DNA from: a bacterium
GTDB lineage: Bacteria; KSB1; UBA2214
NCBI GenBank assembly: GCA_029560815.1
Contig: JAKQKF010000482.1
Location: 1 to 64,000, forward strand
Length of the DNA stretch: 64,000 nt
Direction: 5' to 3'
The position numbers and the translations under genes were made by a program. The notes below the pieces were generated by a model. The model saw nothing but the letters and a program-made list of their open reading frames with translations, was not told the DNA's origin and searched no databases. Below, piece by piece: positions 8,400 through 57,362 of the stretch (within the stretch, counting starts at the first letter, position 1; every line of letters starts with the position of its first letter).

Positions 8400-8428
8400 A
8401 ATGTAACCAATTTGAAGATTAAAAACAA
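8400..8428 (-). promoter_or_regulatory. Predicted promoter of the rlmI-rmuC operon
   Basis: On the minus strand TTGTTT (8428-8423) is followed after exactly 17 bases by TACATT (8405-8400). The expected start is near 8393, giving a leader of about 86 bases. It fits the TTGnnn-N17-TAnnTT pattern found throughout this window. Confidence 0.6.
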
Positions 8429-8453
8429 GCGGCCTCTCGGCATGTAAATTTGC

Positions 8454-8482
8454 TTGGATAACTAGAGCTGATTTTGTAAATT
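8454..8482 (+). promoter_or_regulatory. Predicted promoter of the outer-membrane barrel gene
   Basis: TTGGAT (8454-8459), a 17-base spacer, then TAAATT (8477-8482). The transcript would start near 8489, about 70 bases before ATG 8560. It is arranged back to back with the rlmI promoter in the same 252-base intergenic region. Confidence 0.6.
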
Positions 8483-8559
8483 GGCTGCAACTCGTACTGT
8501 GCGATGGAATTAATGCCACCACACTCCCCTGAAACCGGCGGCGGAAACAGAGGCGAACA

Positions 8560-9192
8560 ATGCGTATCAAACTTTTTCTAATCGGAGTCTTTACCTTGTG
8601 CTCAGCTTTGACCCTCTTTGGCCAGAGCGAGAATTGGGGTGTGGGCGTTCACCTGGTGGTCTCGCTCCCCCAACAGGGCTTTGACAACCTCTCCCGGGAT
8701 GGAGAGGGCATCGGCACCAAGGTTTATTACCGGTTTACGCCCGCATTTGCCCTCCGCGGCGATCTGGCCTACCTCTCCTACGGCGAACGCCGCAACAGCG
8801 AGATGAGCACCAATGGCCCTTTTCTCGTCACCCGGCGCAATGAATCCTTCCAGCTTTCGTTGGGGCCGCAGTTCACCCACCGGATCGGCAGGATTACCCC
8901 CTACGCCGCTGCCCTGGGCGGCTTTTATTATTACCATACCGTAACCACCTACGAATCCTATTACTATAACTACTATGACTATCCATACACCGATAGCAGT
9001 AACGGCCAGAGCAAACTGGGCTGGAGTATCTCCACCGGCCTGCTCGTCGATCTCGGCATCGGCGCTCACCTCGATTTCGGCTTGAAACTGCAGAACATCC
9101 GCAAGGTGGAGACGACCATCGAAGAGGTGACCACCAGAAAGACCGGAGTCGATTATGTCATTACCCTGGGAGCGGTTTTCTTCCGCAATTAA
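8560..9192 (+). CDS. Outer-membrane beta-barrel-like protein with Tyr-rich loop
   Basis: The 210-residue protein has a signal peptide of about 21 residues (MRIKLFLIGVFTLCSALTLFG). After it, alternating short amphipathic strands occur (GVGVHLVVSL, FALRGDLAYLSY, SFQLSLGPQFTHRIG, GWSISTGLLVDLGI, HLDFGLKLQNI, VDYVITLGAVFF). This is the usual look of small 8-stranded outer-membrane barrels. Residues 123-143 hold 11 tyrosines in 21 positions and fall where a surface loop would be. AGAGG lies 6 bases upstream of the ATG. No specific family recognised. Confidence 0.7.
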   Translation: MRIKLFLIGVFTLCSALTLFGQSENWGVGVHLVVSLPQQGFDNLSRDGEGIGTKVYYRFTPAFALRGDLAYLSYGERRNSEMSTNGPFLVTRRNESFQLSLGPQFTHRIGRITPYAAALGGFYYYHTVTTYESYYYNYYDYPYTDSSNGQSKLGWSISTGLLVDLGIGAHLDFGLKLQNIRKVETTIEEVTTRKTGVDYVITLGAVFFRN

Positions 9193-9273
9193 ATACGAGC
9201 GGCAGGCACAACCTAGCGCTTCAATCAGCTTGAGACAGAGGCGAACGACCATCAACCATGAGGCTAAATTTTT

Positions 9274-56073: not shown

Positions 56074-57026
56074 ACAATTTTGTCCCTGAATTCGAAAAAC
56101 CTATTGTCGAGATCGAACGGCGCATCGCCGAGCTGCGTGAATACTCCAGCAGCAAGGATCTCGCCTTCAGCCGTGAGATCGAACGGCTGGAGGCAAAAGC
56201 GCGCCAGCTCCGCCAGGAGGTCTACAGCAGCCTGACGCGCTGGCAGCGCGTGCAGCTCGCCCGCCATCCCAACCGGCCCTATACCCTCGACTATATCCGG
56301 CTTATGATGACCGATTTTATCGAGCTTCACGGCGACCGCCTCTTTGCCGACGATCCCGCCATCGTCGCGGGCATTGGCACCCTGGGAACCATCCGCATCA
56401 CCCTCATCGGCCACCAGAAGGCGAGGGAGACCCGGGAGAAGATCCGCCGCAATTTCGGCATGCCCAATCCGGAAGGCTACCGCAAAGCCCTCCGTCTGAT
56501 GAAAATGGCCGCTCGTTTTTCACGGCCGGTGGTCTGCCTGATCGATACTCCCGGCGCCTACCCTGGGCTGGGTGCCGAAGAACGCGGCCAGGCGGAAGCG
56601 ATCGCGCGCAATCTCTTCGAGATGGCCCGCCTGCCAGTCCCGATCGTGGTGGTCATCATCGGGGACGGAGCCAGCGGCGGAGCCCTGGGTATCGGAGTGG
56701 GGGACCGGATTCTCATGCTCGAGAACAGCTGGTATTCGGTCATCTCGCCGGAAGGATGCGCTGCCATTCTTTACCGCGACAGCGCCAACGCCCACATCGC
56801 TGCAGAATCGATGAAGGTGGCACCGGAAGACCTCCTCAAACTGGGCATCATCGACCGCATCCTCAGGGAACCCGAGGGCGGGGCGCATAACGATCACGCC
56901 GGGACCGCCGGCATCCTCAAGGAGGCCCTGCTCGGTGAACTGGAAGAACTTGCCGCACTCCCGCGCGAGGAACTGGTGCGGCGCCGCATCGAAAAATTCG
57001 CCCGCATGGGCGTCTGGAACGAATAA
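56070..57026 (+). CDS. accA: Acetyl-CoA carboxylase carboxyltransferase subunit alpha
   Basis: The 318-residue protein transfers the carboxyl group from carboxybiotin to acetyl-CoA together with AccD in the first step of fatty-acid synthesis. It shows YTLDYIRLMMTDFIELHGDR near residue 71, NFGMPNPEGYRKALRLMK, LIDTPGAYPGLGAEERGQAE near 156, IGDGASGGALGIGVGD and SPEGCAAILYRD. Length and collinearity are normal. accD, accB and accC are not in the window; the biotin ligase is. Confidence 0.97.
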   Translation: MNNFVPEFEKPIVEIERRIAELREYSSSKDLAFSREIERLEAKARQLRQEVYSSLTRWQRVQLARHPNRPYTLDYIRLMMTDFIELHGDRLFADDPAIVAGIGTLGTIRITLIGHQKARETREKIRRNFGMPNPEGYRKALRLMKMAARFSRPVVCLIDTPGAYPGLGAEERGQAEAIARNLFEMARLPVPIVVVIIGDGASGGALGIGVGDRILMLENSWYSVISPEGCAAILYRDSANAHIAAESMKVAPEDLLKLGIIDRILREPEGGAHNDHAGTAGILKEALLGELEELAALPREELVRRRIEKFARMGVWNE

Positions 57027-57038
57027 AAGGAGGTAATT

Positions 57039-57293
57039 ATGGTGAGCAAGGAGCTGCTCGAGATTCTGATTTGCCCCGCCTGCCACGGCGAACTGGAGTA
57101 CGATGAGGCCGCGGATACTCTGACCTGCAGGGGCCGCCACTGCCCGGAATGCGGAATGCCGGTTGATGAAAACGGACTCTGCACCGAGCCGGAGTGCGGC
57201 CTCAAGCCGGAAAAAGTAGTGGGCCTGCGCTATCGCGTTGAGGATAATATTCCGGTCATGCTCATCGATGAGGCCGAAAAAATCGACCTGTGA
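57039..57293 (+). CDS. Trm112-like zinc protein with an inserted second Cys module
   Basis: The 84-residue protein begins like a bacterial Trm112/YcaR protein (LLEILICPACHGELEY) and ends like one (YRVEDNIPVMLIDEAEKI). Between these, residues 33-62 insert an extra segment with CPECG at 35-39, Cys48 and Cys53. Cysteines are at 12, 15, 30, 35, 38, 48 and 53. Trm112 proteins activate methyltransferases. The insertion could add a second zinc site. A strong AAAAGGAGGT site lies upstream. It follows accA by 12 bases. Confidence 0.85.
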   Translation: MVSKELLEILICPACHGELEYDEAADTLTCRGRHCPECGMPVDENGLCTEPECGLKPEKVVGLRYRVEDNIPVMLIDEAEKIDL

Positions 57294-57333
57294 CGCACTG
57301 CGCCTGCTGACGCTGCAAAAATGCAGAAAAAAC

Positions 57334-57362
57334 TTGACTATATCAATATTTAATCTTATATT
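57334..57362 (+). promoter_or_regulatory. Predicted promoter of the HNH-scpA-scpB-rluB-cmk-ispH run
   Basis: TTGACT (57334-57339), 17 bases, TATATT (57357-57362) in a local AT-rich island. The start would be near 57369, giving a leader of about 110 bases. Confidence 0.67.

Follow-up and report, generated by a model that had tools for sequence, protein, structure and literature searches.

Two promoter codes come closest to the one considered here. Bacteroidota promoters recognized by sigma-ABfr carry TTTG at -33 and TAnnTTTG at -7 (PMC6847099, PMC7366714); in Flavobacterium johnsoniae the -7 element has been refined to TAHHTTTG, and E. coli genes are reported to go unexpressed in Bacteroidetes, and vice versa (PMC6847099). 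The other code is that of sigma-70, TTGACA-N17-TATAAT. The DNA analysed in this work, a stretch of 64,000 nucleotides referred to here as the window, comes from a bacterium of the phylum KSB1, of which Zhuqueibacterota is the newer name. Zhuqueibacterota has been assigned to the FCB superphylum (PMC11683472), and KSB1 has been described as an uncultured phylum (PMC9012183). A preliminary description of the window had listed eleven intergenic sites sharing TTGnnn-N17-TAnnTT and offered them as a promoter model for this lineage. That model is supported by the sequence of the window and its relatives, and we consider it very likely (probability roughly 0.9) that all eleven sites serve as housekeeping promoters in a KSB1 bacterium and belong to a variant of the sigma-ABfr type.

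The sites and the genes behind them are listed below. Genes were called with a purpose-written codon-model caller trained on the window and on the related genome G052, and the called starts are approximate.

8400..8428, minus strand: TTGTTT-N17-TACATT, facing a 23S rRNA methyltransferase-like gene (7126-8307, minus) with its called start 92 nt away
8454..8482, plus strand: TTGGAT-N17-TAAATT, facing an open reading frame (ORF; called 8608-9192, plus) that matches no family
13847..13875, plus strand: TTGCAT-N17-TAAATT, facing a called gene (13927-14634, plus) whose product matches a CPBP-type protease family only weakly, below the cut-off
26493..26521, minus strand: TTGACA-N17-TATATT, facing a small ORF that scores weakly (26098-26466, minus)
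33000..33028, minus strand: TTGATT-N17-TACATT, facing a diaminopimelate decarboxylase-like gene (31642-32928, minus) with its called start 71 nt away
33111..33139, plus strand: TTGACT-N17-TACTTT, facing radA (called start 33147), 7 nt away
38527..38555, plus strand: TTGACT-N17-TACTTT, after rpe and followed by a weak ORF (38644-38844), then 38942-39391 and xerD
43160..43188, minus strand: TTGCAA-N17-TACATT, facing an rnfB-like gene (ORF 42243-43118, minus)
43275..43303, plus strand: TTGACT-N17-TATCTT, facing the called gene of a sodium/solute symporter (43419-45107, plus)
53596..53624, plus strand: TTGATT-N17-TAAATT, 26 nt before tRNA-His (53651-53725), which is followed by tRNA-Glu (53749-53821)
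57334..57362, plus strand: TTGACT-N17-TATATT, facing an HNH-type ORF (ORF 57380-57982, called 57479-57982)

Five of the eleven sites read TTGAC. At radA (33111-33149) the -10 element stops 7 nt short of the called ATG, a layout also found in G052; the radA message would be nearly leaderless if the called start is right. The 200-residue ORF at 57380-57982 (plus strand) matches, below the cut-off, the HNH region of IscB/Cas9 models. Elsewhere in the window, a 671-residue protein (29604-31619, minus strand) has a C-terminus that matches FlgD-like models and, marginally above the cut-off, a T9SS type A sorting domain.

On direct re-reading, the coordinates, strands and 17-base spacers given for the eleven sites in the preliminary description were each correct, and so was its tally of -10 boxes (TAAATT and TACATT three times each, TACTTT and TATATT twice each, TATCTT once). 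An exact search for TTG-N20-TAnnTT, that is, with a spacer of 17, yields 13 matches on both strands of the window, while every other spacer from 10 to 25 yields 1-4. No TTG-17-TATAAT is present on either strand, and a generic sigma-70 scan of positions 33000-45000 found 4 candidates against 4.0 in shuffled sequence. Dinucleotide shuffles of the whole window (n=100) gave a mean of 1.95 matches (sd 1.27, largest 6), to be compared with the observed 13, and shuffles of the gaps only (n=300) gave a mean of 0.52 (sd 0.73, largest 4), to be compared with the 11 observed there. The amount of gap DNA had been put too low in the preliminary description, at about 2 kb, since the called gaps sum to about 4.6-4.8 kb. 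Of the two matches absent from the earlier list, that at 53905-53933 (plus strand) straddles a called gene start, and that at 57952-57980 (plus strand) falls at the 3' end of the HNH-type ORF; the called start of scpA (58127) lies 147 nt further on, and the match is possibly a promoter within the gene that precedes scpA. The invariant T at positions 5 and 6 and the fixed spacer, which had been presented as features of the sites, are preset by the chosen pattern, so that tests outside the window were needed; these tests agree with both features, apart from a minor class with a spacer of 16.

Tests at the genome level were run in KSB1 relatives of the window. G052 is a close relative, with 93% identity in GlgB among 82 genomes of the phylum, and its contig C236 aligns with window positions 13924-53858 in two blocks at about 83% identity; among species genomes, the best RadA match reaches 69% (L001). 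The first ten sites listed above are kept in G052, with a diverged spacer at 13847-13875, and the seven fixed bases are preserved there at 11 of 11 sites. When nine sites were aligned together with their G052 counterparts, the fixed bases agreed at 63 of 63 positions and the remaining 22 positions per site at 169 of 198. In front of radA, an exact match on the same strand occurs in G052 and in five of six further relatives, the exception being G049. The site at 57334 recurs as an identical 29-mer in G052 and is matched exactly in G053 and G054; G051 and G050 have no aligned match there.

A scan of whole genomes, proposed in the preliminary description as a check, showed enrichment both in the closest relative as a whole and in the regions upstream of genes. 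In the whole genome of G052 the pattern is counted 580 times and its backward-read control 188 times, an approximately threefold excess. The genomes were picked largely by glgB matches and are thus a non-random set, 30 KSB1 genomes having been used for the plain pattern and 52 of 82 for the TTTG and TTGAC forms. The plain pattern exceeded its control in 28 of the 30, in some of them barely (657 versus 637 in G077, 1053 versus 1007 in G010), and fell below it in G038 (2013 versus 2102) and G068 (874 versus 1016); in these four genomes the TTGAC form nonetheless exceeds its control. In G001 (2083 versus 1898) the plain pattern does not stand out because this genome is too AT-rich. In G101, the genome of locus L022, the plain pattern is far below its control (569 versus 1713), perhaps owing to repeats.

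The spacer preference is sharpest upstream of genes. The G052 scan covered 475 kb with 381 called genes and 234 upstream regions, after contigs reading as N had been dropped, and these regions hold 53 matches at a spacer of 17, whereas each remaining spacer between 13 and 24 gives 0-10; the 10 matches at a spacer of 16 form the minor class. Over the same range of spacers, the counts at 17 and elsewhere are 39 versus 0-9 in G050, 17 versus 0-10 in G077 and 30 versus 0-6 in G034. TTG-N15-TAnnTT, with a spacer of 12, is also raised in G052 (15 matches, compared with 0-10 at most other spacers), which counts against the promoter reading. In the coding DNA of G052 (431,542 bases) a spacer of 17 gives 11 matches and other spacers from 11 to 24 give 1-10, and the gaps of all four genomes exceed their shuffled versions (61 versus 5.8 in G052, 46 versus 5.2 in G050, 31 versus 0.8 in G034 and 30 versus 4.0 in G077). 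A ZOOPS EM search, to which no pattern was supplied and from which the best of 12 random starts was taken for each genome, converged on TTG-N20-TAnnTT in both G052 (mixing weight 0.37) and G050 (0.33). When sites in G052 were anchored on TTGAC only (54 sites), T-A-n-A-T-T emerged at the expected position. The -10 element ends 20-59 nt before the called start at 27 of 53 sites in G052, 24 of 39 in G050 and 13 of 30 in G034. The first tRNA of a unit is preceded by an exact match in four of four cases across the window, G052 and G050, and in neither of the two tRNA units of G077.

Compared with sigma-70 promoters, those proposed for KSB1 share the TTG(AC) of the -35 element and the 17-base spacer (the peak at 17 and the minor class at 16 lie within 17 ± 1), and their -10 element likewise opens with T-A and closes with T. 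An A/T stretch upstream of the -35 element is also common to both; in the profiles of both G052 and G050 it lies 5-9 bases upstream of the TTG, and the sixth base of the -35 element is a T. The G052 profile includes a weak extended -10 as well. The difference lies at -8, where KSB1 has T instead of A: at a spacer of 17, TAnnTT outnumbers TAnnAT by 53 to 8 in G052, and TAnnAT is found only 5, 4 and 7 times in G050, G077 and G034. The opposite holds for 19 loci titled Clostridia or relatives, which have 60 TTG-17-TAnnAT and 7 TAnnTT, with TAnnAT at other spacers numbering 4-15. Eight deltaproteobacterial loci displayed no spacer-17 peak for either form. The impression that the pattern stands midway between the E. 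coli and Bacteroidota (TAnnTTTG) forms holds, in that a TTG(AC) -35 element and a rigid spacer of 17 are combined with a TAnnTT core that mostly lacks the TG.

The sigma factors of the relatives were compared in region 2.4, again as had been suggested, and proved to match the Bacteroidota type and not five other sigma factors. RpoD-like matches were found in 18 of 18 KSB1 genomes searched and were over the curated cut-off in none of the 18; at least two matches of at least 180 bits were present in 14 of them. No sigma gene was found in the window itself. The RpoD-like open frames of the relatives are short, about 276-317 residues, and a short sigma factor that lacks region 1.1 and has substituted regions 2.3-2.4, as is characteristic of sigma-ABfr, is present in the KSB1 relatives. 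Regions 2.3-2.4 read WWIRQSILQALAEQSR-VR-PLN in KSB1, with single substitutions, as they do in 12 sigma factors taken from ten Bacteroidota genomes, while the five others read WWIRQAITR--ADQ-RTIR-PVH. The helix of region 4.2 carries RQIK in KSB1 and Bacteroidota and RQIE in the five others. KSB1 differs from sigma-70 in the type of its regions 2.3-2.4 and in having a short sigma factor below the RpoD cut-off, and it resembles Bacteroidota in sigma length, in regions 2.3-2.4 and in the 4.2 helix, whereas the N-terminus MRQLKI, present in 12 of 12 Bacteroidota rows, is found in 0 of 24 KSB1 rows. Among solved structures, one KSB1 and one Bacteroidota sigma factor each match many SigA/RpoD chains. 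The KSB1 sequences (loci L131-L154) sort into two types, of 14 and 10 rows, which co-occur in many genomes and both have the Bacteroidota-type region 2.4.

With sigma factors so similar, the sites could be plain Bacteroidota-type sigma-ABfr promoters (TAnnTTTG), the missing TG reflecting merely a loose match. The near-identical regions 2.3-2.4 would agree with this, as would the promoter itself, in which T-12, A-11, T-8 and T-7 are the same and TTG is at the same distance. G is likewise avoided at -10 and -9, most clearly in G052 (5.7% at the two free positions versus a background of 25.6%) and G050 (2.6% versus 24.1%) and less so in G034 (15.0% versus 34.2%) and G077 (20.6% versus 27.3%), as is described for Flavobacterium (PMC6847099). 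Over whole genomes, the TTTG form is likewise more frequent than its control in many KSB1 genomes (40 versus 5 in G034, 53 versus 11 in G032, 71 versus 6 in G022); these counts are high in KSB1 and Bacteroidota alike, and the contrast in TG therefore rests on upstream regions. In G022 the TTTG form is skewed between strands (18 forward and 53 reverse, with controls of 6 and 0), perhaps because of a repeated element. In upstream regions, however, TG at -6/-5 is mostly missing: it follows the spacer-17 TAnnTT in 0 of 53 cases in G052, 1 of 39 in G050, 1 of 17 in G077 and 4 of 30 in G034, as against 15 of 35 in 41 loci titled Bacteroidota. In the latter, TTG-17-TAnnTTTG occurs 15 times and other spacers give 1-7, and the TAnnTT form without TG has no spacer-17 peak, whereas the KSB1 spacer is rigid at 17 for that form. 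Moreover, TTGAC is enriched in KSB1: TTGAC-N18-TAnnTT is above the backward control in 52 of the 52 KSB1 genomes given, by more than 1.5-fold in 46 and with a median ratio of 2.67, but has a median ratio of only 0.58 (range 0.31-1.10) in ten Bacteroidota genomes. Two of six other genomes were above control for this form (24 versus 10 in G097, 37 versus 24 in G094). These differences make the loose-match explanation very improbable. KSB1 versus Bacteroidota amounts to a single evolutionary comparison.

It is also conceivable, though slightly less probable still, that a second sigma factor reads this signal at a subset of genes and that the true housekeeping promoter is another sequence. The occurrence of at least two RpoD-like matches in 14 of 18 genomes, in two sequence types, would fit such an arrangement, and only part of the upstream regions carry exact matches (53 over 234 in G052), which, like the mixing weights of about 0.35, counts against the housekeeping reading. 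Yet the search run on G052 and G050 with no pattern supplied returned TTG-N20-TAnnTT itself, the motif precedes tRNAs and varied genes, and the alternative TAnnAT reaches only 8, 5, 4 and 7 matches in G052, G050, G077 and G034. An artefact of base composition, or the binding site of a single regulator, appears least probable of all. The gaps are indeed AT-richer than the genes (GC of 0.51 versus 0.59 in the window), but shuffled gaps fail to reproduce the excess, the peak is confined to one spacer, the key bases are kept despite diverging spacers, and the genes behind the sites are functionally unrelated.

If the sites are housekeeping promoters of the sigma-ABfr-type variant, sigma region 4.2 would contact the TTG (often TTGAC) near -35, the Bacteroidota-type regions 2.3-2.4 would recognize and open TAHHTT (H being any base except G) 17 bases downstream, and RNA polymerase would start about 7 bases beyond the -10 element. 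The A/T stretch upstream of the TTG looks like a proximal UP element. We infer the transcription of the sites, their start points and the residue contacts from sequence. More tentatively, and in our opinion with the odds against it, KSB1 might stand half-way between the sigma-70 and Bacteroidota codes: the switch at -8 would go together with the shared regions 2.3-2.4, and the gain of TG and the fading of TTGAC would be separate events in Bacteroidota, accompanied by the sigma N-terminus MRQLKI..TNRE next to region 1.2. Promoter position -5 lies near sigma region 1.2, and the N-terminal segment of Bacteroidota would read the TG.

In the open-licence papers searched, we found no description of a KSB1 TAnnTT promoter, the whole word TANNTT giving only an unrelated use, and neither a cross-phylum promoter survey, a Bacteroidetes sigma structure, Chlorobaculum start sites nor a study of region 2.4 in Chlorobi/Bacteroidetes; a term search of two papers on the KSB1 phylum found no discussion of sigma factors or promoters. 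For a phylum reported to be uncultured (PMC9012183), the pattern supplies a working promoter model that can help to locate transcription units in metagenome-assembled genomes and to express KSB1 genes elsewhere. Because it offers a natural intermediate between two codes that fail in each other's hosts, the evolution of this barrier becomes testable by defined sigma swaps. If the half-way reading is true, the two changes of the promoter code would be separable, and grafting the Bacteroidota N-terminus should shift the dependence on TG.
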